From positions 789,501 through 853,500 of the forward strand of contig NZ_CP072642.1 of assembly GCF_018304765.1 (NCBI RefSeq): 64,000 nt of DNA, written 5' to 3'. Position 1 is the first letter of the stretch. Every line of letters starts with the position of its first letter. Shown here in pieces: positions 6,814 through 41,198 of this stretch. Both the position numbers and the translations under genes were made by a program. Origin of the DNA: Chloracidobacterium sp. N (GTDB lineage Bacteria; Acidobacteriota; Blastocatellia; Chloracidobacteriales; Chloracidobacteriaceae). A model generated the notes under the pieces. That model made no database searches and was not told the DNA's origin. It saw only the letters and a list, made by a program, of their open reading frames with translations.

Positions 6814-8535
6814 ATGTTCTGCCCAAAGTGCGGTACTGAAAACCGTCCAAATGCGCGTTTCTGTAAAAGCTGCGGGCACGCTTTCGCCGGGGGCGGAGCC
6901 GGTGGGTCAGCGCCCCTGACCGGCCCCTCGTCCATCGAGCATACCTTTGTCATGCGTTCGGTCGGCCCCGATGATCCGGGGCGGACGAATGTTTCCCTGC
7001 CGTCCCTGGAAATGCAGCCGGAGTCCGCGCCGCCACCCGGTCCGGCGCCGGACAATAGCCACCACGGGGATGGTTTCATTCTGGGAGACATCTCCTCGCC
7101 CAACCTGCGGCTGGATGCCCCGCCGCCGGGAGCGACCGCCGGACCGGAATCCCTCCCGGACCTGTTTGCGACCAACATCTCCACCCCACAGTTTCCACCG
7201 ACGCTCATCTCTCCACCCCCGCCGCCATCAGCTTCACCCCCACTGTCGCCACCGGCAGGTGGCTTTTCAGTGCCTGATCCATTGGCGACCAAAACCGGCA
7301 CACCGGCGGCTTCGCTACCAACACCACAAACACTCGTCCCCCCGCCGCCGGCAGGCAGTTTTCCCGCGTCTGGTCCGTTGACAAACCGAACCGGGACACC
7401 GGCCGGTGGGACGCCGGCGGTGACGCCGCCAACCCCGCCGTTGAACCCGACGCCACCCGGAGGCGTGCCGCTCCCACCGGATGTGGCGGCAACCCCCTTC
7501 CGTCCGGTGGAACCGCTTGTCGGCGCACCACGGCCGATGGGACGGCAGATCACCGAGATGCCGGTGCTGCCGCCCAAGCCCCCGGCTGACCTCTTTGCCC
7601 AAACCGCTCCGGCTGCGGCACCTCCCCGCCGTACTGGCTTCCCGCTCTGGCTGGTCGTTGGGCTGTCAGTCGGAGCGATTGTGGCTTTGATTGGGATCGT
7701 GGCGGCCATTGCCTACTTTCAGTGGGCTGCGCCCTCCGCTCCGGTGGCTTCGGACACGCCGGCAGATACCCCGGCAACCAGAGGCGAGCCACCCACCCAA
7801 ACCGAATCACCGGTGACACCGCCCAAGCCGGTTATCCCCGAAAACATGATTGCCATTCCAGGCGGGGAGTATCTCATTGGACGCAACAGCGGCGACTTTC
7901 TCGATCCCTATGAAAAACCCCAGCATACGGTGACACTGCGCCCGTTTTACATTGACCGGACCGAAGTCACGAACGCCGACTACCAGAAATTCATCGAGGC
8001 AACCGGGCATCCAGCCCCGGCTTCCTGGGTCGGTGCGCGGTTTGAAGCCGGCAAGGAACTGTTCCCGGTCACAGGTGTCACCCTGTCCGATGCCGAAGCC
8101 TATGCCCGCTGGGCCGGTAAGCGCCTGCCCACTGAAGAGGAATGGGAGGCGGCCGCCCATGGACGTACGCCAACGATTTTCCCTTGGGGCAATGCTTTCG
8201 ATCCCAGCCGTGCCAATGTCAAAGCCAGTGGTCTTGGTGTGCCGGTACGGGTTGGGACGTATCCGGCCGGCGCCAGTCCCTTTGGGGTGCTCGACATGAC
8301 GGGCAATGTCTGGGAGTGGACAGCTTCAGAAGCCCGACTCTACCCCGGAAGCACCGAGAAACCACCGAGTTGGGACAAGCCGCTCAATCCCGGCACACGG
8401 TTGCAAATCATTCGGGGCGGAGCGTTTACGGAAGACACCAGGCGCTGCACCGTGACTTACCGCAACTGGGTCCCGTCGGACTTCAAGGCCCGTGAACTTG
8501 GCTTCCGCTGCGCCCAGGATCAGCCGCCACAGTGA
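6814..8535 (+). CDS. Zinc-ribbon, Pro-rich, single-TM protein with C-terminal FGE-sulfatase (SUMF1-like) domain
   Basis: This 573-residue protein begins with a zinc ribbon (CPKCGTENRPNARFCKSCG, residues 3-21). About 250 residues of Pro/Thr-rich linker follow, then one transmembrane helix near residues 280-305. The C-terminal domain from about residue 345 has the formylglycine-generating-enzyme fold: IPGGEYLIG, DRTEVTNADY, GKRLPTEEEWE, DMTGNVWEWT, IRGGAF and GFRCA. Of the two cysteines used by true FGE for copper and catalysis, only the second position is Cys (RRC), so sulfatase activation is doubtful. The topology implies a cytoplasmic zinc ribbon and a periplasmic FGE domain. The TPR gene follows 67 bp downstream. 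Confidence 0.85.
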   Translation: MFCPKCGTENRPNARFCKSCGHAFAGGGAGGSAPLTGPSSIEHTFVMRSVGPDDPGRTNVSLPSLEMQPESAPPPGPAPDNSHHGDGFILGDISSPNLRLDAPPPGATAGPESLPDLFATNISTPQFPPTLISPPPPPSASPPLSPPAGGFSVPDPLATKTGTPAASLPTPQTLVPPPPAGSFPASGPLTNRTGTPAGGTPAVTPPTPPLNPTPPGGVPLPPDVAATPFRPVEPLVGAPRPMGRQITEMPVLPPKPPADLFAQTAPAAAPPRRTGFPLWLVVGLSVGAIVALIGIVAAIAYFQWAAPSAPVASDTPADTPATRGEPPTQTESPVTPPKPVIPENMIAIPGGEYLIGRNSGDFLDPYEKPQHTVTLRPFYIDRTEVTNADYQKFIEATGHPAPASWVGARFEAGKELFPVTGVTLSDAEAYARWAGKRLPTEEEWEAAAHGRTPTIFPWGNAFDPSRANVKASGLGVPVRVGTYPAGASPFGVLDMTGNVWEWTASEARLYPGSTEKPPSWDKPLNPGTRLQIIRGGAFTEDTRRCTVTYRNWVPSDFKARELGFRCAQDQPPQ

Positions 8536-26810: not shown

Positions 26811-28169
26811 TCAGAGCCGTCCGCGCGTTTTGACCTCGAGGTAGCGGTTGACCAGGGCAACCGAGAGCTGTCCGGTCGGCACGTCCAGCGCCAGTCCGCC
26901 GAGTTCGACAATGCGGTTCAGGGCCTGTTCGCGTTGGGTGAGGAGTTCTTCGGCCACCGACTGGGCATAGACCTCATCGAGTGATGTCGGCGGCGGTTTG
27001 ACGAAGGCGCGCAGGTCACGGTCGCCGATGGTGACAATGAGCGGCAGGTGACGTGGAATGAGCGCCGCCGTATGCGCCAGCAGGTCGGCCGAGGCATCCG
27101 CATCCACGACATCGGTCAGCAGGACAACCAGCGACCGCTTCCGGCAGTGGCGTCCCAGATGGGCAAAGGCCCGCGCATAGGACGGTTCAATCATCTGCGG
27201 CTGTACGTCGTGCAGGTGCTCCAAGATAACCCCCAGTTGACTGGCGCCGGGCCGCGGCGGCAGGAAGTCATCCACCCGGCGGGTGAAGGTCAGCAGCCCG
27301 ACCTGGTCGCCGCCGGCCACGGCGACGTAAGCCAGCGCCAGCGCCGCATTGACGGCATAATCGAGTTTGGTCAGGTCGCCAAGGCGGGCGGTCATCAGGC
27401 GGCCGCAGTCCAGCATCAGCAGGATGCTCTGGCTGCGCTCGATCTGGTACTGCCGCGTGACCAGCTTGCCCCGCCGGGCCGAAGCGGCCCACGCCACATG
27501 GCGCAGTTCGTCGCCGATGACAAACTCCCGCAACGACTCGAACTCACGACCCTGCCCACGCAGTCGCTGCCGACGCTCGCCCTGGCGGCCCATGCGATAG
27601 GCTTCGATGACCTGCCGCTGTGCGGCGCGAAAGTCGGGGTACACTTTGACCGATTCCACAGCCGGAACGGATGTCTGCCGCCAGACGAGGCCCCACGGAC
27701 TGTGCAGCCGCACCGCGATGTTGCCAAACTCAAAGCGCCCGCGCGCCGGCGCCAGCAGCTCATAGTGCAGCGTCGCCGTTCCCCGTGGGGGAACCGTAAA
27801 CTGTCCCTCCCGTTTCGGCGTCTGCATCTGGGGGGGCGGTTCATCCTTGACCCACAGCGTCAGCGGAGCCGGGCGGTGGTTCTGGACTTCAATGGTGACG
27901 CCATTGCCACTGCCAATGGCAAAGCGTTCCGCACACCGGCGGCGAAGGGTGAAGCTTCCCCGAAGAGGCGTCCGGGCCGCGTCGAGCAGGGCCAGGCCGA
28001 GCAGGGCCACATCGAACGCGCCCCCGACCCACAGGAAAGACGGATGGCTCCACCCCAGTGAGAAGAGAACCAACCCCCCGGCAAAGGCCATGAGAAACCG
28101 GGCGGTGAAGACAATGTTCAGGGTGCTGTACGACACCAGAGCAGGTGTTTTTTCCACGTGCGGAACCAT
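26811..28169 (-). CDS. DUF58 domain protein with vWA-like fold
   Basis: This 452-residue protein has two N-terminal transmembrane helices (about residues 22-60), a beta-rich region, and the DUF58 signature GREFESLREFVIGDELRHVAWAASARRGKLVTRQY in segments. A von Willebrand A-like region follows (ILLMLDCGRLM, LVVLLTDVVDADAS). DUF58 proteins usually accompany MoxR AAA+ ATPases and transglutaminase proteins, but no moxR gene is nearby. Its start region abuts the divergent O-antigen-ligase-like gene. Confidence 0.88.
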   Translation of the reverse strand: MVPHVEKTPALVSYSTLNIVFTARFLMAFAGGLVLFSLGWSHPSFLWVGGAFDVALLGLALLDAARTPLRGSFTLRRRCAERFAIGSGNGVTIEVQNHRPAPLTLWVKDEPPPQMQTPKREGQFTVPPRGTATLHYELLAPARGRFEFGNIAVRLHSPWGLVWRQTSVPAVESVKVYPDFRAAQRQVIEAYRMGRQGERRQRLRGQGREFESLREFVIGDELRHVAWAASARRGKLVTRQYQIERSQSILLMLDCGRLMTARLGDLTKLDYAVNAALALAYVAVAGGDQVGLLTFTRRVDDFLPPRPGASQLGVILEHLHDVQPQMIEPSYARAFAHLGRHCRKRSLVVLLTDVVDADASADLLAHTAALIPRHLPLIVTIGDRDLRAFVKPPPTSLDEVYAQSVAEELLTQREQALNRIVELGGLALDVPTGQLSVALVNRYLEVKTRGRL

Positions 28170-28262
28170 AGTATCCCGCCGCTACGGACACAACCGCCGT
28201 GTGGTCGGTCAAGCGCTGCCTCGGCCGGTGGTGACTTTGAGGACAGGTGTGAAAAAGCTGGC

Positions 28263-29801
28263 GTGGCCCGGTCATCCATAGCGTACCAATCTCTCCGGCG
28301 GAGGCTCCTGCTGCTTTCCAGGTGGTTTTTGCTGTTGTATGCCGTGCTGGCACCCCACTCGATTGCCGGCGCGCAGGGGAGTGCCCTGGTGCTGGCCCTG
28401 CTGTGGGGGCTGGAACGGTGGTTGGCGGCTGGTGACACCACGCTTCCGGCATCGGCGTCCCGGTGGCGGGAGGCGGCGCAGCGATGGTGGCCGCTGGCAT
28501 TTTTTTTTGTCCTGTGTGCCGTGTCGGCGCTGATGTCCTACGAGCCACGGTGGAGCCTGGATGGGCTGCGTAGCGTGGCCTTTATGGCGACCTGTGGCAT
28601 TGTGGCGTTCTGGGTGCAATCCCGCGCCCAGGCGTGGTGTCTGGCCTGGACGCTGCTGCTTTCAGCCCAGGTCGGGTTGCTCTACACCGGGTATCAACTG
28701 CTGGTGGGAAGTGGTGTGCGTCTGGTCGAACTCAGCCCTGACTCACCTCTGCATCCGTACTTTCAGCCTGGCGATGTCGTGTTGCGCGTGGATGGTGAAG
28801 TCGTCCGTACCCCGGAGGACATCACCCGCCTCGTTCTGCAGAAACCATTGCCTTCCAGCCAGCCCGTGAGCGTGACCGGACGGCGCATCGAGCTGCCGCT
28901 CACGGCCCCGCTCGACCGGGCGGCACTCCAGTCCCGTCTGGCGTTGCTGGGCCCGGCCGGGTTGGGCATCCGCGCCAGTGCGCCGGCGCGGGACTTTCGC
29001 GCCAGCGGGTTTTTTTCGCACTACGTCACCTATGCCGAGGTGCTGCAAATTCTCATTTCCATGGCGCTCGGCATGGCCTGGCGTACCGTCGGACGCCGGC
29101 GCTGGTGGCTCTGGGGGCTGGCGCTGCTGCTTTTGCTGGCGCTGGGGCTGACGCTGTCCCGCGGCCCGACGGGCGGGCTCATCGTCAGCGTCGGCGTGAT
29201 GCTGTACCTGCTGTGGCGGGAGGGCGCAGTCGGTACACCACGGGTGGTGATGGGGCTGGCAATTGCCGGCATCCTGCTGTCCAGTGCGCTGGCCTATGCC
29301 TACGCCATGCGCCACATGTCCGTAGTGGATGTCCGTGAAGGCAGTCTGTTCTGGCGGCTGGTGGTCTGGCAGGAAGGCATCGGGCTGGTGGCGAAACATC
29401 CCTGGTTTGGCATCGGGCGCCACAGCGACCGGCTGCACGCGGCAGAATGGGGACTGTACGCCCATGGCGATTTGCCGCCCGGCCACTTTCACAACACCTA
29501 TCTGCAGGTGGCGGTGTGGTACGGGCTGCCGGCTCTGGCGGCCTACCTCTGGTTGCTGCTGACTTATGTCGGACAACTGCTGCGGCGGCTGCGCGACGGC
29601 ATTGCCCTGGGCGCGCTGGGCGCACTCACCGGCTTTGCCGCGAGCGGCATCGCCCATTTCAACCTGGGAGACGGTGAAGTGTCCATGGTGCTGTGGTTTG
29701 TGGTGGGGATAGCGTTGGGGATGCCGGTCACGGCGGAGATGCCAGCCGATCATCCGCCGTCCGGGCACAGGGGAGTTTCATCCAGGGAGCATTTTTCGTA
29801 G
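28263..29801 (+). CDS. O-antigen ligase-like polytopic membrane protein with embedded PDZ-like segment
   Basis: The protein has about 512 residues from the GTG at 28263. Open frame continues to a GTG at 28158, but that would overlap the divergent DUF58 gene. It has ten or more hydrophobic helices and the Wzy_C/WaaL-type large loop: EGIGLVAKHPWFGIGRHS, then GDLPPGHFHNTYLQVAVWYG. Between helices, at about 28700-28920, a soluble stretch reads like a PDZ domain: LVELSPDSPLHPYFQPGDVVLRVDGEVVRTPEDI in two halves. The ligase fold usually joins O-polysaccharide to lipid A core or oligosaccharide to protein. A T9 run near 28500 stays in frame. Confidence 0.78.
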   Translation: MARSSIAYQSLRRRLLLLSRWFLLLYAVLAPHSIAGAQGSALVLALLWGLERWLAAGDTTLPASASRWREAAQRWWPLAFFFVLCAVSALMSYEPRWSLDGLRSVAFMATCGIVAFWVQSRAQAWCLAWTLLLSAQVGLLYTGYQLLVGSGVRLVELSPDSPLHPYFQPGDVVLRVDGEVVRTPEDITRLVLQKPLPSSQPVSVTGRRIELPLTAPLDRAALQSRLALLGPAGLGIRASAPARDFRASGFFSHYVTYAEVLQILISMALGMAWRTVGRRRWWLWGLALLLLLALGLTLSRGPTGGLIVSVGVMLYLLWREGAVGTPRVVMGLAIAGILLSSALAYAYAMRHMSVVDVREGSLFWRLVVWQEGIGLVAKHPWFGIGRHSDRLHAAEWGLYAHGDLPPGHFHNTYLQVAVWYGLPALAAYLWLLLTYVGQLLRRLRDGIALGALGALTGFAASGIAHFNLGDGEVSMVLWFVVGIALGMPVTAEMPADHPPSGHRGVSSREHFS

Positions 29802-31058: not shown

Positions 31059-31084
31059 GTACGTTTGAGTACATTGTTGAGTAC
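31059..31084. promoter_or_regulatory. GTAC-containing direct repeats upstream of the pseudokinase-FGE gene
   Basis: GTAC occurs at 31059-31062, 31069-31072 and 31081-31084, and TTGAGTAC is exactly repeated at 31065-31072 and 31077-31084. The roughly helical spacing and the position 64 bp before the start suggest a protein-binding site. This is unproven. Confidence 0.3.
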
Positions 31085-31147
31085 CTGTGGCAGGCGGCGT
31101 AGATTGGAAGCACGTCCTCCCAATCCCTGCTATCAAGAGAGCCGCCC

Positions 31148-32878
31148 ATGCCGACCGCGCTCGATCCTCCATCGCCCACGCTGGATAACGCTGCCATGAA
31201 CAAAAGACTTGGGGATTACCTCAAAGCCTACGGCGCGCCCTTGCCGGCCCAGGAAGCCCTCGATCTCTTTCTGGGGATGGCGCGCATTGTCCATGGCATG
31301 CACGAACAATTTGCCTTTTATGGTCAGGAGCTACGGTTTGACAACATTATCCTGAGCCCGGACCAGCCGCCGCGTGTCCTCGATTGCGGCATTCCCCAGT
31401 CCCGCCTGGCGGCCAAGTCACCCGCACCGGAGGACGTAGCCCAGGGTATCCGCCGGGATATTCACCAGTTGGGGGTGATGCTGTACCAGATGGCGACGGG
31501 CCAGCCGGTGCCGGAGCGGCGCTCGACCTATAACTTTCGGACGGATTTTGACGAGACCTCCGATCTGTTGCCGGTGCCGGACCCGCGTACGGTCAACCCG
31601 GCGGTCTCCATGGAAATTGTCTGCCTGGTCGCCAAAGCCACGGCCCGCGACGCGCAAAGCCAGGCAAAAAGTATCGGGGAGTTGTTGTCCCTGCTGGAGC
31701 CGTCGCCGGATGCGGCGGAGGGAGCAGCAAAGGCGGAGTTGTCCGCGCCGGCAGCGCCTGCACCGGCAGCATCTGCGCCGGCTGAGAGCGCCCAGGCGTC
31801 GCAGGCGAATCCGCCGGTGCGCCGGGATGCCAAAGTGACTCTCGCCAAGCGGTCGCTGCCGGTGGTTTCCGAACGCACGGGTTTTGTGCTCAACGAAGCC
31901 GCCGTCAAGCGGGATGCTCCGCCGGCGCCGGCGCCACCACCGGCCAGCCTGGTGGACGGACTGGCGCAGGCCTTTGCGGATTTGAGTGGAACGGGAGAGC
32001 GTCCGACCGGCAAGGGGTTCAAGTTCTTCCTGGCGGGTGTGAGCTGCCTGCTGCTGCTGGTGGTGAGTCTGATCACCTACCGGATTGTCGAAAAGTTCTT
32101 TCTGGGGGGCGGGGCCAGCGTGGCGACGCGCCCCACGGTGGAAGCCCTGCGGAGCCGGAGCGAAACGTCCAACCGTCAGACCTTCGTTCCGACGACCGCG
32201 CCGGACGATACCCGCGCCCTGCTGCCGGCACTCGTGGCCGTCAAAGGTGGGACCTTTGAGATGGGCAGCCTTGATGGGCAGCCGGATGAGCAGCCGGTGC
32301 ACCGGGTGACACTCTCCGACTTTGAGATTGGCAAGTATGAAGTCACAAACGCCCAGTACAAGGCGTTCTGTGACGCCACTGGCCGTCCCTATCCCGAAGA
32401 ACCAAACTTTGCCCGGCTGCGCAACTACTTTCTGGACTATCCCCATCACCCGGTGGTGCGGGTGAGTTGGGATGATGCCAACGCCTACTGCGTCTGGCTG
32501 AGTGAACGGACGGGGGACCTCTACCGCTTACCGACGGAAGCCGAATGGGAATATGTTGCCCGCAACAGCCCGATTGGCTGGGACAGCTACCATAGTGGCG
32601 GCGCACCGCATGAGGTCGGAACCAGCCCCCCCAACGCACTGGGGATTTATGACCTGATGGGCAATGTGTGGGAATGGTGCGCCGACTGGTACGGCTCCTA
32701 TCCAGCCGAACCGCAGACGAATCCGAAAGGTTCACCGCGTGGCACGCATAAGGTGCTGCGGGGGTGTTCGTGGTATTTTAGCACCGTGCCGTGCCGTCCG
32801 ACTTCGCGGTTTCGGTTCGACCCCACGTTGAACTACTGGTTCAACGGAGGCTTTCGTGTCGTCCGGGCCAAACACTGA
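31148..32878 (+). CDS. Degenerate protein-kinase C-lobe, TM helix and FGE-fold domain fusion
   Basis: In this 576-residue protein, residues 20-185 resemble only the C-lobe of a Ser/Thr kinase. The HRD/catalytic loop is replaced by FYGQELRFDNIIL, the DFG position reads LDCGI, and RRDIHQLGVMLYQMATGQPVP matches the helix-F region. No G-loop or catalytic Asp is present, so it should be inactive. An Ala/Pro-rich linker and one TM helix (about residues 297-320) lead to an FGE domain. That domain carries VKGGTFEMGS, KYEVTNAQYKAF, YRLPTEEAEWE-like sequence, DLMGNVWEW and RGCSW. Only the second FGE cysteine position is kept (PCR). Start 31148 or ATG 31196. Confidence 0.82.
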   Translation: MPTALDPPSPTLDNAAMNKRLGDYLKAYGAPLPAQEALDLFLGMARIVHGMHEQFAFYGQELRFDNIILSPDQPPRVLDCGIPQSRLAAKSPAPEDVAQGIRRDIHQLGVMLYQMATGQPVPERRSTYNFRTDFDETSDLLPVPDPRTVNPAVSMEIVCLVAKATARDAQSQAKSIGELLSLLEPSPDAAEGAAKAELSAPAAPAPAASAPAESAQASQANPPVRRDAKVTLAKRSLPVVSERTGFVLNEAAVKRDAPPAPAPPPASLVDGLAQAFADLSGTGERPTGKGFKFFLAGVSCLLLLVVSLITYRIVEKFFLGGGASVATRPTVEALRSRSETSNRQTFVPTTAPDDTRALLPALVAVKGGTFEMGSLDGQPDEQPVHRVTLSDFEIGKYEVTNAQYKAFCDATGRPYPEEPNFARLRNYFLDYPHHPVVRVSWDDANAYCVWLSERTGDLYRLPTEAEWEYVARNSPIGWDSYHSGGAPHEVGTSPPNALGIYDLMGNVWEWCADWYGSYPAEPQTNPKGSPRGTHKVLRGCSWYFSTVPCRPTSRFRFDPTLNYWFNGGFRVVRAKH

Positions 32879-32964: not shown

Positions 32965-34479
32965 ATGGGACTCTTTGACCACGTCCGAAGTGCGCGCGAG
33001 CAGGTGTCGAATATCCAGGATACCTCGGCGCTGGTGGCTTCGATTGAGCAGTGCGAACGCATCCTGCAGTCCGATCCGAAGCACCTTCCGACCTTGCTGG
33101 AGCTGGGACGGCTCTACCAGGAACACGGCCAGACCCAAAAGGCCTGCGATGTGTTTTGTCGGGCCGGTGAAATTGCTGTTGAGCGCAACGATACGGAGCA
33201 GGCGCTGGTCAGCTACCGCAAGGCCGAACGGCTGGCAGCAGGCGATCTGCGGGTTGAGCTGTGGCACAAACTGTTTTACCTCAGCTACAAGCTGCGTCGC
33301 ATGGAAGAGGCCTTCGAGCGGGCCAAGCAGATCGTCGAAACCCTTGTGGAACGTGGCAACACGAAGCGGGCTGCCAACTTTGTCTCCGCCATGCCGGACT
33401 TGGGAGCCAAGGATGCCGAATACCGGCAAATCCTCGAAGCCATGGCCGGGGTTGTGCCGCGCCAGACGGGTGCAACTGGAACGGCTGTTGGCACCTGGCG
33501 GCGGGCAACCTCCGGCCAACGGAGCGCTGATGAGTACTTTCCGGGACAGACCATCCTGATTGTGGATGACGAGCCGGAGTTGCTGGAAATCCTCGAATCA
33601 TCCCTGCGGACGCTTGGCGCACGCATCATCACGGCCGCAAACGGTCACATGGCCTGCGAAAAGGTCAAGAAGTACGCGCCTTCGCTCATCATCAGTGACC
33701 TCGCCATGCCGGGCATGGATGGCAGCCAGTTCTTTGAGTGGGTGAAGTCACAACCCGAACACGCGCGGGTGCCCTTTATCTGCCTGTCTTCGATTGGCTC
33801 AGAGGCAGAACGTGTCGCCGCCTTTGAGATGGGCGTCGAGGACTACTGGACCAAACCCTTTCATCCGACGGAAATCCGCTACCGCGTCAAGCATCTGCTG
33901 CGGCGTCTGCGGCGGCCCGTGGATTTTCAGGGCAAGCTGTCCCAGGTCAACCTCGCTGAAATCATCCAGATTCTGGAGTCCGGCCGCCGTACGGGATTGC
34001 TGACCATCGAATCCGGTGCAGAGCAGGCGTACCTGTACTTCCGGGATGGCTTCATCCTCAATGCCGAGTGTGGAACCTTGTCCGGGGAGCGGGCGGTGTT
34101 TCATCTGGTGGGCTGGACCAGCGGTGATTTTGCCTTCTGCACCATGCCGATGGCGCGTGAAAAGGTCATTCAACTGACTCCGCAGCAGTTGCTGATGGAA
34201 GCCTTCCGGCGCTTCGATGAAGTCGAGCGCGTGTTGTCGTCCCTGCCAAATCAGCATGAGGTGTTCGTCTGTCGGCCGGGATTTGAAAAAGCTCCGGAAG
34301 TGGCCGAGCAGTTGGCGCAGGGCGGTGAATTCGTGGCCAATCTGGAGACGATTCGCCAGCTTTTCGACGGCACCCGCACGTTGGAAACCTGCTGCCAGTC
34401 CTTGCGCGATGACCTCGAAACGCTGCTTCTCGTACGTGAACTCGTTGACCGCGGGTTGCTCGTGCCGCGATCAGCGTGA
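32965..34479 (+). CDS. TPR - response regulator receiver - DUF4388 protein, copy 1
   Basis: This 504-residue protein has TPR-like helices at residues 20-160 and a receiver domain at about 196-312, with acidic pair Asp201/202, phosphoacceptor Asp245 in ISDLAMP, and Lys in YWTKPF. A DUF4388 (PatA-N-like) domain begins near 318 with GKLSQVNLAEIIQILESGRRTGLL, followed by a helical C-terminus. No DNA-binding or enzymatic output domain is seen, so signalling is likely by protein contacts. A close paralogue follows 150 bp downstream. A sensor kinase is not adjacent. Confidence 0.9.
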   Translation: MGLFDHVRSAREQVSNIQDTSALVASIEQCERILQSDPKHLPTLLELGRLYQEHGQTQKACDVFCRAGEIAVERNDTEQALVSYRKAERLAAGDLRVELWHKLFYLSYKLRRMEEAFERAKQIVETLVERGNTKRAANFVSAMPDLGAKDAEYRQILEAMAGVVPRQTGATGTAVGTWRRATSGQRSADEYFPGQTILIVDDEPELLEILESSLRTLGARIITAANGHMACEKVKKYAPSLIISDLAMPGMDGSQFFEWVKSQPEHARVPFICLSSIGSEAERVAAFEMGVEDYWTKPFHPTEIRYRVKHLLRRLRRPVDFQGKLSQVNLAEIIQILESGRRTGLLTIESGAEQAYLYFRDGFILNAECGTLSGERAVFHLVGWTSGDFAFCTMPMAREKVIQLTPQQLLMEAFRRFDEVERVLSSLPNQHEVFVCRPGFEKAPEVAEQLAQGGEFVANLETIRQLFDGTRTLETCCQSLRDDLETLLLVRELVDRGLLVPRSA

Positions 34480-34629
34480 GGGTAGCCCGTGGCGGCCAGA
34501 TTATGGCACGATTGGGCCCGATTGTTCCAAAGCCATATCTTTGCGCATCGTCTATTCTGTTTTTCAGTCTGTTGATGACCGTGGCGACGCTTTCCCCGGC
34601 GTTGTACCAAGGTGACATTCGAGGTTGCC

Positions 34630-36153
34630 ATGGGACTGTTTGATCGGATTCTGAATGCCCGCGCACAAGTGACCAACCTGCTTGACAATGCCAAGCTCAA
34701 CAGCGCCATTGAGCGTCATGAACGCGAACTTGAACAGGACCCACGCAACCTGGGCGCTCTGCAGGAACTGGGTTTGCTGTATCAGGAGCGCGGTGAGCCA
34801 CAAAAAGCCTGTGAGGTGATGCTGCGAGCGGCGACAATTTATTTCGACCGTCTGGACTTTGAGCAGGGAATGCTTCTGTGCCGCAAGGCAGAGCGGCTGG
34901 CTTCCGGGGAAACCCGGCTTGATGTCTGGCGCAAGCTGTTTGAGATCAACCACCGCCTGCGCCGCTATGACGACGCCTTCGGACGTGCCAAACAGATTGT
35001 CGAGCACCTGATGGAACTGGGTGATACGGTGCGGGCGGCGGACTTTGTCAACCTGATGCCGGACCTGGGGCCGAAAGACATTCTCTACCGCCGGGAACTC
35101 AAGCTGCTGGTCGGTCTCGAAGCGGACAACGTCGCCACGGTTGGACAGGTGTCGAGCACGTGGCAGCGCAAGCAGGCGACGGTACGCGACCCGGATGAAT
35201 ACTTCCCCGAACTGTCGGTGCTCATCGTGGATGACGAGCCGGGGATTTTGAACGTCCTGGAAACCAGTCTGCGCTCCCTCGGCCCGCAAATCCTCATGGC
35301 ATCAAACGGGCGGGTGGCCTGTGAGATGGTCAAGGCCCACCAGCCAGCGCTCATCATCAGCGACCTCAACATGCCGGAAATGGACGGCAGCCAGTTTTTT
35401 GAGTGGCTTCGCTCGCAGCCGGACTGCGCGCATATTCCTTTCGTCTGCCTGTCTTCAGCCGACAGCGAAGCCGAGCGCATGGCCGCCTTTGACATGGGGG
35501 TGGAGGATTACTGGTCCAAACCCTTCCGCCCCATGGAAATTCGCCACCGCGTCAAACGTCTGCTCAAGCGGGTGCGGCCGCCCGTGGATTTGCAGGGCAA
35601 GCTGGCGCAGGTCAGTCTGGCCGAAGTCATCCAGATGCTCGAAACCGGCCGCCGCACGGGACTCCTGCTGCTGACGCGCCAGCAGGAAGAAGCCAGGGTT
35701 TATTTTCGGGATGGGTTCATTCTGGACATCGAATATGGCGCAGTCCGCGCCGAACGGGCCTTTTTCCGGCTCGTGGGCTGGACGACCGGAAGCTTCACCT
35801 TCCGCTCGCTGTCCATCGGCCGCGAGCCGGTCATCAAGCTCAATCCCCAGCAGTTGCTGATGGAAGCCTTCCGGCGCTTTGATGAAGTCGAGCACCTCAT
35901 TGCCGAGCTTCCCAACCGCGACCAGACCTTCATCTGTGGTGATGGTTTTGAGCGCGCGCCGGAAGTCGCCGAGCAGATTGCCCAGGAAGGTGAATTTGCC
36001 GCCAACATCGAGCGCGTGCGGCAGTTGTTCGACGGTTCACGGACCCTTGACCAGTGCTGCGACGAACTGCGGGATGACCTCGAAACGCTGCTTCTCGTTC
36101 AGGAACTCATCAACCAGAAGCTGCTCGTTCCGGGGCAGGTCATCGAGCTGTAG
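34630..36153 (+). CDS. TPR - response regulator receiver - DUF4388 protein, copy 2
   Basis: This 507-residue paralogue of the preceding gene has the same order of domains, start (MGLFDRIL versus MGLFDHVR) and phosphoacceptor position (Asp245 in ISDLNMP). Shared blocks include AEVIQMLETGRRTGLL and PQQLLMEAFRRFDEVE. The start at 34630 is preferred to GTG 34612 because it matches the paralogue. The pair is a tandem duplication with clear divergence, which suggests different partners or signals. Confidence 0.9.
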   Translation: MGLFDRILNARAQVTNLLDNAKLNSAIERHERELEQDPRNLGALQELGLLYQERGEPQKACEVMLRAATIYFDRLDFEQGMLLCRKAERLASGETRLDVWRKLFEINHRLRRYDDAFGRAKQIVEHLMELGDTVRAADFVNLMPDLGPKDILYRRELKLLVGLEADNVATVGQVSSTWQRKQATVRDPDEYFPELSVLIVDDEPGILNVLETSLRSLGPQILMASNGRVACEMVKAHQPALIISDLNMPEMDGSQFFEWLRSQPDCAHIPFVCLSSADSEAERMAAFDMGVEDYWSKPFRPMEIRHRVKRLLKRVRPPVDLQGKLAQVSLAEVIQMLETGRRTGLLLLTRQQEEARVYFRDGFILDIEYGAVRAERAFFRLVGWTTGSFTFRSLSIGREPVIKLNPQQLLMEAFRRFDEVEHLIAELPNRDQTFICGDGFERAPEVAEQIAQEGEFAANIERVRQLFDGSRTLDQCCDELRDDLETLLLVQELINQKLLVPGQVIEL

Positions 36154-39143: not shown

Positions 39144-41051
39144 CTAGTCCGCTATCGGCGTAAGTTGCCAGAGGTGGATGAGGGCATCTGCTCCGCCGGA
39201 GGCCAGATGCCGGCCGTCCGGCGCAAACGCCAGGGATTGCGCTGCGCCATCGTGGGCCTCGACGGTGACAAGGTTGGTGAAATCCTGCGTGGACCAGAGC
39301 TTGATGACACCATTCCAGTCACTGGAGGCGAGCCACCGGCCATCGGGCGAAAGCGTCAGCGCCCGGATGGCTTCGAGATGGGCTTCGACCGTCTGGAGCG
39401 GGCTGGTTTCAGTGGCGTGCCAGAGGCACAACTGTCCGTCCCGGCCGCCGGAAACCAGGCGGCCGTCGGGCAGATAGACCAGTGACGTTGGCGCATGGCC
39501 GGACCGCCGCAGCATGGTCTGTTCCGTTTTGGAAATCAGGTCCCAGAAGTGAATGGCATCATCGGCGCCGCCGGAAGCCAGCGTATGCCCGTCCGGGGAG
39601 AGCGCCAGCGCGTCAATGGTTTTGATGTGGCCGAGAAAGGAAGCAATCTGGCGTTGCCGCAGGGCGTCCCAGATTTTCACTTCCGTGTCAAACGCCGTGA
39701 TGAGCCAGCGGCCGTCAGAAGCAAACAGCAGGGCGCGCACGGCCGTCCGGTGCCCGAAGGAAGCAATTTCAGTGGCATCGCGCAGCGTCCAGAGTCGGGC
39801 CGTGCCGTCGGCCCCGCCGCTGGCCAAGCGGAGTCCATCCGGGGCAATGGCCACGGCATTGACCGAGTATTCGTGGCCGCTGAACAGTCCGATTTCACGG
39901 TGTGTCCGCAGGTCCCAGAGGCGAACGCTCCCATCGCCGCTGGCCGAGGCCAGCCAGTCACCACTGCCGTGGTAGGACAGGCTCTTGACGACGTGTTCAT
40001 GCCCGGTCAGGGTGGCGACCAGTTTCAACTCGACCGGTTTTATCTGCGACAGATCGAGGGTGGGGAACGTGGCCGAAATCTTGGCGATGTTGAGTGCGGC
40101 GGCTGTTTCCTCGGCTTCCCGCAGGGCGTGCTCAAATTCCTGGCAGAGCAGAAGGGCCGTTGGCTGCCGCCGTTCACGCGCTTTCGACAGCGCCTTGAGC
40201 ACGACGCGCTCGATTTCTTCGGGAATGTCCGGGCGCAGCCGCCGCATCAGCGGCGGCGGGTCAACCGCATGCTGGATGATGACGGCCGATGGCGTCGGCG
40301 CATCGAAGGGGACGTGGCCGACCAGCAGTTCGTACAGCGTGACGCCGAGTGAGTAAATGTCCGATGTCCGGTCGAGTTCTTCGCCCCGGCACTGTTCCGG
40401 CGACATGTAGTGTGGCGTACCCATCACCAGTCCCGGCTCGGTGAGGTTGGAAACCGTAGTCCCGGGCCGTTCCTTGAGCTTGGCAATGCCGAAGTCCACG
40501 ACCTTGACGATTTCTTCGCCGGTTTCGGGCTTGCTGAGCAGGATGATGTTGTCCGGCTTGATGTCCCGGTGGACGACGCCGGCTTCGTGCGCCGCATGGA
40601 TAGCCTGGCAGACGGGCCGCAGAATGGACACAATCCGCTGCGGCGACAGCCGTTCGTGGCGTTCCAGTTCTTCGCGCAGGGAATGCCCGGTCAGCAGTTC
40701 CATAGCGAGGTACGCCTGGCCGGTCGGCAGGATGCCAAAGTCATATACACTGATGACATTGGGATGGTTGAGCCGCGCCGCCGCCCGTGCTTCCTGGCGG
40801 AAGCGCTCCAGGGTTTCCTGGTTGGAGACAAAATCAGGCAGCACGATCTTCAGGGCAATCGTGCGGTCGAGTTCCAGATGCGTCGCCCGATAGACCGAGC
40901 CCATGCCGCCCTGGCCGATGAGGGCGTCGAGACGATACTTGCCGCTGATGATGCGTGTTCCGGGAAAGGCCTCGGCCAGAAATATCCCGTCTTTTGTGCA
41001 GCGCAAATCGGTGTCGTCGTAACACTGCTTGCAGACCGGGCAATATCGCAT
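39144..41051 (-). CDS. Zinc-ribbon Ser/Thr protein kinase with C-terminal WD40 repeats
   Basis: This 635-residue protein begins with a zinc-ribbon-like MRYCPVCKQCYDD segment and a further Cys. A complete Hanks-type kinase domain (about residues 35-300) has IGQGGMGSVYRA, the ALKI lysine, HRDIKPDN, DFG and GTPHYMSPEQ. A linker leads to six or seven WD40 repeats (about residues 365-635), such as LTGHEHVVKSLSYHGSGDWL and LASGGADGTARLWTL. No TM helix is obvious, so it is likely cytosolic. Upstream open frame to 41147 is unsupported. Confidence 0.93.
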   Translation of the reverse strand: MRYCPVCKQCYDDTDLRCTKDGIFLAEAFPGTRIISGKYRLDALIGQGGMGSVYRATHLELDRTIALKIVLPDFVSNQETLERFRQEARAAARLNHPNVISVYDFGILPTGQAYLAMELLTGHSLREELERHERLSPQRIVSILRPVCQAIHAAHEAGVVHRDIKPDNIILLSKPETGEEIVKVVDFGIAKLKERPGTTVSNLTEPGLVMGTPHYMSPEQCRGEELDRTSDIYSLGVTLYELLVGHVPFDAPTPSAVIIQHAVDPPPLMRRLRPDIPEEIERVVLKALSKARERRQPTALLLCQEFEHALREAEETAAALNIAKISATFPTLDLSQIKPVELKLVATLTGHEHVVKSLSYHGSGDWLASASGDGSVRLWDLRTHREIGLFSGHEYSVNAVAIAPDGLRLASGGADGTARLWTLRDATEIASFGHRTAVRALLFASDGRWLITAFDTEVKIWDALRQRQIASFLGHIKTIDALALSPDGHTLASGGADDAIHFWDLISKTEQTMLRRSGHAPTSLVYLPDGRLVSGGRDGQLCLWHATETSPLQTVEAHLEAIRALTLSPDGRWLASSDWNGVIKLWSTQDFTNLVTVEAHDGAAQSLAFAPDGRHLASGGADALIHLWQLTPIAD

Positions 41052-41198
41052 GGTGCTATCCGAGGAAGGGATCAGACGGTGAACGCAGCATAGGCAGGCC
41101 ACTGGGCCGGTGTCCAGCATTGTCTTCGGGCAATGATATTGGTGCACGTCTGCGCCGGATTCAACACCGGCCGTCCTGGCGCCGGGCGGCGTGGCTTT

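Follow-up and report, generated by a model that had tools for sequence, protein, structure and literature searches.

The window, a stretch of 64,000 nucleotides from Chloracidobacterium sp. N (genome of 3.7 Mb, two contigs), contains on its plus strand an open reading frame at positions 31148-32878 that encodes a protein of 576 amino acids. In this protein, the C-terminal half of a kinase domain is joined through a transmembrane (TM) helix to a domain of the formylglycine-generating enzyme (FGE) type; it is referred to here as the half-kinase. An earlier note on this DNA, made from the letters alone, had described such an architecture. The observation is real, the coordinates hold, and one correction concerning the DFG motif is required. 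The features of the locus are as follows.

31148-32878, plus strand: half-kinase pseudokinase/TM/FGE-fold protein, 576 amino acids (open reading frame, Pfam, orthologues)
31199-31702, plus strand: C-lobe of a kinase domain spanning helices alphaD to alphaI (residues 18-185), N-lobe absent (Pfam, profiles, model)
31322-31345, plus strand: GQELRFDN, residues 59-66, relic of the HRDxKxxN catalytic loop (aligned to 10 kinase rows)
31382-31390, plus strand: DCG (DFG in kinases), residues 79-81 (8 of 8 orthologues)
31820-31915, plus strand: conserved motif in the linker, residues 225-256 (12 of its 32 positions identical in all 8 orthologues)
32018-32080, plus strand: single transmembrane helix, residues ~291-311 (hydropathy peak 2.46)
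32222-32872, plus strand: FGE-sulfatase-type domain, residues ~359-575, probably periplasmic judging from the predicted topology (Pfam E 5e-52)
32765-32767, plus strand: Cys540 (RGCS) where other FGE rows almost always have Gly (RGGS) (8 of 8 orthologues)
32777-32794, plus strand: Phe544 and Cys549 at the FGE catalytic cysteine positions (Phe544 by alignment, Cys549 by spacing)
31077-31105, plus strand: promoter-like box TTGAGT-17 nt-TAGATT 5' of the gene, putative in its role
32965-34479, plus strand: TPR-REC-DUF4388 protein 1, adjacent, candidate partner (Pfam, gene order)
34630-36153, plus strand: TPR-REC-DUF4388 protein 2, paralogue of protein 1, candidate partner (Pfam, gene order)

Some other genes of the window were also inspected. 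The second FGE-fold membrane protein announced at 6814 was recovered, with the FGE domain detected by Pfam and the hydrophobic stretch by eye; the protein (6814-8535) consists of an N-terminal zinc ribbon, a long Pro-rich linker, a TM-like stretch and the FGE domain, and gave no kinase match. The gene at 28158-29801 encodes an O-antigen ligase (Wzy_C) whose ligase domain is preceded by a weak PDZ match (residues 202-227, E 0.0011, under the Pfam cut-off). About 6 kb downstream of the half-kinase gene, an intact Ser/Thr kinase fused to WD40 repeats is encoded on the minus strand (39144-41147). The PADLOC matches were to generic kinase models (PD-T4-6, PglW) and do not point to a role in defence.

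The Pfam Pkinase model matched residues 21-168 of the half-kinase on model positions 85-247 of 263 with 12.8 bits (E 0.077), which is below the Pfam cut-off of 31.7 bits. A profile of three orthologues matched StkP in the C-lobe register (E 6.7e-7), and all rows of this search with E < 0.1 were kinases. Furthermore, an HMM of 300 positions was built from 21 kinases of the host genome (9 of its 30 kinase loci contributed no sequence after the motif filter). All 8 orthologues matched this HMM solely within positions 97-294 (E 6e-9 to 4e-13; window copy 3e-9), the copy of genome G005 at 191-294 only. The three registers agree with the claim that only C-lobe sequence of a kinase is present. Of the 13 kinase stretches listed with more than 60 bits, 10 were aligned with the half-kinase, and L063:9069-10172 (a near copy), L071 and L062 were omitted. 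In this alignment, GQELRFDN lines up with HRDIKPDN, DCG with DFG and Asp104 with the Asp of helix alphaF. The stretch from DFG to APE comprises 11 residues in the half-kinase versus 23-28 in the three kinase rows counted.

Structure prediction of this region against kinase folds, which the earlier note had proposed as a check, supported a kinase-like fold. AF2 with three orthologues only gave a poor model (pLDDT 42), and with 10 kinase rows among 13 it predicted the C-lobe helices in order (pLDDT 77.2, pTM 0.75). The kinase rows in the alignment favour such an outcome, and therefore the sequence profiles have to be regarded as the independent evidence. The model matched PknB in Foldseek (E 3.3e-6), and in VIA its residues 1-186 were superimposed on residues 83-278 of PknB (1o6y) with a Z of 16.2 and an rmsd of 6.7 over 165 residues. 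The best 50 Foldseek and the best 50 VIA matches listed were kinases throughout; the absence of YukC/EssB from the best 50 VIA matches carries no weight either way. Based on the profiles, the assignment of the N-terminal region to a kinase C-lobe is firm despite the Pfam score below the cut-off.

The C-lobe helices alphaD to alphaI are those of a Hanks-type Ser/Thr kinase, including the alphaF Asp (Asp104), which is present in 8 of 8 orthologues. In the catalytic loop, the Asp of HRDxKxxN is replaced by Glu61 and the Lys by Arg63, and Asn66 is retained; all three residues occur in 7 of 7 Chloracidobacterium sequences. In the copy of the sister genus, Asp, Thr and His are aligned at these positions beside a one-residue gap, so that the catalytic Asp is replaced by Glu in seven of the eight orthologues, the window copy included. 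The metal-binding Asp79 and Gly81 of DCG are kept in all eight. Thus, of the claim that the HRD and DFG motifs are replaced, the part on HRD stands, and the part on DFG has to be withdrawn. A bacterial pseudokinase is recognised by the loss of at least one key residue of VAIK, HRD and DFG; here, VAIK and the HRD Asp are missing. Such a drift of the catalytic site would fit a protein which no longer needs an active site, and the retained DCG is left unexplained by it. Canonical ATP binding and phosphorylation would not be possible for the half-kinase.

The search for the family covered ten genomes: the host, six of the same genus, one of a sister genus (G007) and two of other genera. The loci L016 and L017 lie on the contigs of G001 and G003 and were counted once. 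Full-length orthologues occur in eight of them; the two other genera gave matches to the FGE domain only. The N-lobe with its G-loop, the VAIK Lys and the alphaC Glu, as required of a Hanks-type kinase, is absent from all eight orthologues. The seven Chloracidobacterium copies share the start MPTAL, and the sister-genus copy has a longer upstream open frame. No remnant of an N-lobe was detected upstream of the gene in the window and at five other loci, where nothing exceeded 1.9 bits; an intact-kinase control reached 376 bits, and the stretches of G003 and G006 lay outside this search. For the window and these five loci, a frameshifted N-lobe upstream was rejected on the same result. The earlier note had named orthologues whose kinase domain is intact as a possible refutation; these were looked for, and none was encountered among the seven other orthologues found (six same-genus genomes, one sister genus). 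The seven lack the N-lobe as well, and local decay was rejected.

None of the eight copies contains an internal stop. Within the genus, the C-lobe showed pN/pS values of about 0.16-0.23 (0.165, 0.165, 0.228 and 0.206 in the four of six same-genus genomes compared). These values are close to those of the neighbouring PpiC gene (0.164-0.193), and they exceed those of the C-lobe in the intact kinase encoded at 39144-41147 (0.071-0.136) by a factor of 1.5-2.3. The FGE domain gave 0.058-0.080 in the same four comparisons. Towards the sister genus, the C-lobe pN/pS was 0.49 at a dS of 2.28, where synonymous sites are saturated (dN/dS 0.21), and the identity was 47% for the C-lobe and 82% for the FGE domain; the constraint on the C-lobe is less certain at this distance. 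In a scan of the class, in which at most 20 candidates per genome were scored, the C-lobe profile was positive at E 1e-12 in 8 of 162 genomes, belonging to 2 of 53 genera. The lack of an N-lobe in all eight orthologues, the kept selection and the distribution over two genera together indicate that the half-kinase is a lineage-restricted trait which, as judged from these comparisons, is older than the genus.

Between the C-lobe and the membrane, conservation is uneven among the eight orthologues. Residues 186-224 are highly variable (1 of 39 invariant) and are followed by the conserved linker motif of residues 225-256. The juxtamembrane residues 269-290 (11 of 22 invariant) show the highest conservation outside the FGE domain. 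A search of the genome for the linker motif found no further copy; its one other hit (37 residues, 49%, E 0.08) fell in the juxtamembrane part, outside the motif, and was discarded. The Kyte-Doolittle profile has a single clear peak (2.46 at residues 291-309; best value elsewhere 1.16), in line with the one TM helix that had been placed between the kinase part and the FGE fold.

The identification of the C-terminal domain as FGE-fold was likewise correct, as shown by the Pfam match and by PDB matches from E 8.1e-26. With 162 of 215 positions invariant in eight orthologues, this domain is the most constrained part of the protein. The catalytic pair of human FGE is C336/C341. Phe544 aligns with the first of these cysteines, and Cys549, kept in 8 of 8 orthologues, falls at the position of the second by spacing, so that the canonical pair is not present. 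Among 135 other FGE-fold rows, the pair occurs in one (about 25 are gapped there). All eight orthologues, and 0 of 110 other FGE rows, have Cys540 in place of the second Gly of RGGS; those rows carry Gly (107), Ala (2) or Asp (1) at this position, and 25 of the 135 non-orthologue rows were gapped in this HMM-based count. Judged by its residues, the domain is not a canonical FGE and has the family-specific Cys540. A function of the ectodomain as a periplasmic sensor is plausible.

The half-kinase gene lies just upstream of two TPR-REC genes (32965 and 34630), as had been described, and the order PpiC, half-kinase, TPR-REC1, TPR-REC2 was found in 6 of 6 other same-genus genomes. The gap between the half-kinase gene and TPR-REC1 measures 72-98 nt and is not conserved. 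In the upstream box TTGAG-18-TAGA-T-GAA, both TTGAG and TAGA-T-GAA are invariant in the 7 of 7 same-genus genomes aligned. The unconserved gap in combination with the invariant box suggests that the half-kinase and TPR-REC genes may form one transcript. A consensus promoter scan listed one site (1.0 in shuffles), and the TTGAGT-17-TAGATT box was not among the sites listed. Both TPR-REC proteins carry DUF4388 according to Pfam, which we take to be the PATAN domain. The two paralogues (32965-36153) are about 57-60% identical across genomes and stand in tandem in the window and in 6 of 6 other same-genus genomes. According to PMC5812497, PATAN response regulators are linked to cyanobacterial type IV pilus motility; for the TPR-REC-PATAN pair, such a connection is no more than a lead.

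The sister-genus contig stops roughly 380 nt past the half-kinase gene, and the best TPR-REC relative (52%) is located on a different contig beside a different neighbour. The TPR-REC relatives of two further genera stand beside other genes as well, as read by eye, and no sign of the adjacency was seen outside the genus in these three. The link to the TPR-REC proteins that the earlier note implied is thus backed by gene order within the genus and finds no support in the sister genus.

With some reserve, we lean towards the explanation that the protein is an adaptor with a single membrane pass, whose ancestor was a kinase-TM-FGE receptor and from which the entire N-lobe has been lost. Its retention in two related genera makes a role in docking more probable than an enzymatic one, and an inactive docking platform would be consistent with the absent N-lobe and the maintained selection. 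The FGE-fold ectodomain would bind a periplasmic ligand or protein, its occupancy or clustering would be passed through the TM helix to the C-lobe and the linker motif, and a cytoplasmic partner would dock onto these. This partner could be one of the intact kinases of the cell, much as HER3 activates a partner kinase through its C-lobe, or the TPR-REC pair encoded next to the gene; neither is favoured by the evidence. The adaptor is supported by the presence of the C-lobe only, the lack of a flanking N-lobe, Glu at the HRD Asp position in the genus and the conservation in two genera. Against it, the C-lobe pN/pS above that of the intact kinase and the 47% identity to the sister genus might reflect a partly relaxed constraint, the DCG Asp and the sister-genus Asp at the HRD position are not explained by pure scaffolding, and the TPR-REC adjacency was not seen in the sister genus. 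It is doubtful that the protein acts as a half-kinase co-receptor, in which selection maintains the lone C-lobe to dock or activate intact kinases or receivers and the FGE cysteine pair has been rebuilt as Cys540/Cys549.

Of the explanations that compete with the adaptor, an erosion of the C-lobe deserves most attention. The FGE ectodomain would then be the sole working part, and the C-lobe a slowly eroding cytoplasmic anchor from a kinase-FGE ancestor. The far higher conservation of the FGE domain towards the sister genus, the loss of the catalytic-loop Asn there and the C-lobe pN/pS of up to 0.49 at saturated synonymous sites would agree with this. However, the C-lobe pN/pS stays at 0.165-0.230 within the genus, eight copies are free of stops and the C-lobe helices follow in order in the predicted model, so that we consider erosion unlikely. 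Less probable still, the FGE domain could act as an altered oxidase or thiol enzyme, with Cys540 and Cys549 replacing the canonical pair and the half-kinase serving as a regulatory anchor. The restriction of Cys540 to the family (8 of 8 versus 0 of 110 rows), the retention of Cys549 and the replacement of the first catalytic Cys by Phe544 might be read in this way. But the two cysteines are spaced by nine residues, unlike the canonical pair with its five, a structural disulfide explains them equally well, and most FGE-fold rows also lack the canonical pair.

The remaining two alternatives concern the kinase part itself. A separate protein might supply the N-lobe to form an active pair, and for this the kept DCG Asp and the sister-genus Asp that aligns with the HRD Asp could be cited, as well as a split-lobe HipA kinase proposed in Legionella (PMC9758233). 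The genome encodes 40 kinases that score above the Pfam cut-off. None of 48 Pkinase matches in the genome (E up to 10) was confined to the N-lobe, though, and the searched flanks of the window and five loci contained none. Within the sensitivity of these Pkinase and flank searches, a composite kinase with its N-lobe on a separate gene was rejected, and a split kinase is very improbable. That residues 1-190 resemble a kinase by chance can hardly be true: the Pfam match under the cut-off and the three-orthologue model with its pLDDT of 42 would allow it, but the profile rows with E < 0.1 were all kinases in the C-lobe register (best 6.7e-7), the own-genome HMM matched eight orthologues (6e-9 to 4e-13) and the 50 Foldseek and 50 VIA matches listed were only kinases.

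Fusions between kinases and FGE domains have in themselves long been known. PMC1262709 describes chlamydial Ser/Thr kinases fused to an FGE/NirV (DUF323) domain. In these and in four proteins of the host genome, the kinase-derived domain likewise comes first and the FGE-sulfatase domain is C-terminal. The four host proteins possess both lobes with G-loop, HRDxKxxN and DFG, whereas the half-kinase has the C-lobe alone; compared with a kinase-TM-FGE receptor, it has the TM helix and the FGE-sulfatase domain and lacks a complete kinase domain. Among 14 distinct other kinase-FGE open reading frames in the loci examined (L025 is cut by a contig end), none was C-lobe-only. The reverse layout was seen in a MAG of Riflebacteria (L062:7332-8693), where an open frame of 454 amino acids encodes an N-lobe only, a TM-like stretch and FGE; this could be a real lobe loss or an assembly error. 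With formylglycine-generating enzyme, the protein shares the domain family and differs by Phe544 and the family-specific Cys540.

YukC/EssB are bacterial TM pseudokinases which scaffold without ATP binding, and for YukC no ATP binding in vitro is reported (PMC9600267, PMC12599244). They share with the half-kinase a cytoplasmic pseudokinase with degraded motifs and a reduced activation loop, one TM helix and an outer domain. YukC keeps a degraded glycine-rich loop and belongs to the T7SSb, whereas the half-kinase has no N-lobe and an FGE-fold ectodomain; its neighbours examined were PpiC, TPR-REC and others. In Table 1 of PMC12599244, 12 of 12 bacterial pseudokinases have a VAIK entry, i.e. the N-lobe strand. 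Bacterial pseudokinases are little studied.

HER3 (ErbB3) keeps its whole kinase domain and shares no architecture with the half-kinase; the likeness is a mechanistic analogy, namely a C-lobe surface that activates a partner kinase. According to PMC3014569, only the C-lobe activator residues of HER3 are conserved and its C-lobe activates the partner kinase, and this role suggests that a lone C-lobe could be useful. A C-lobe without an N-lobe would exclude canonical ATP binding and isolate the docking surface, and a conserved lone C-lobe offers a clean test of the C-lobe's own role in transmembrane signalling. No description of a C-lobe-only kinase-FGE protein or of the gene 31148-32878 was found in the open-licence literature searched.
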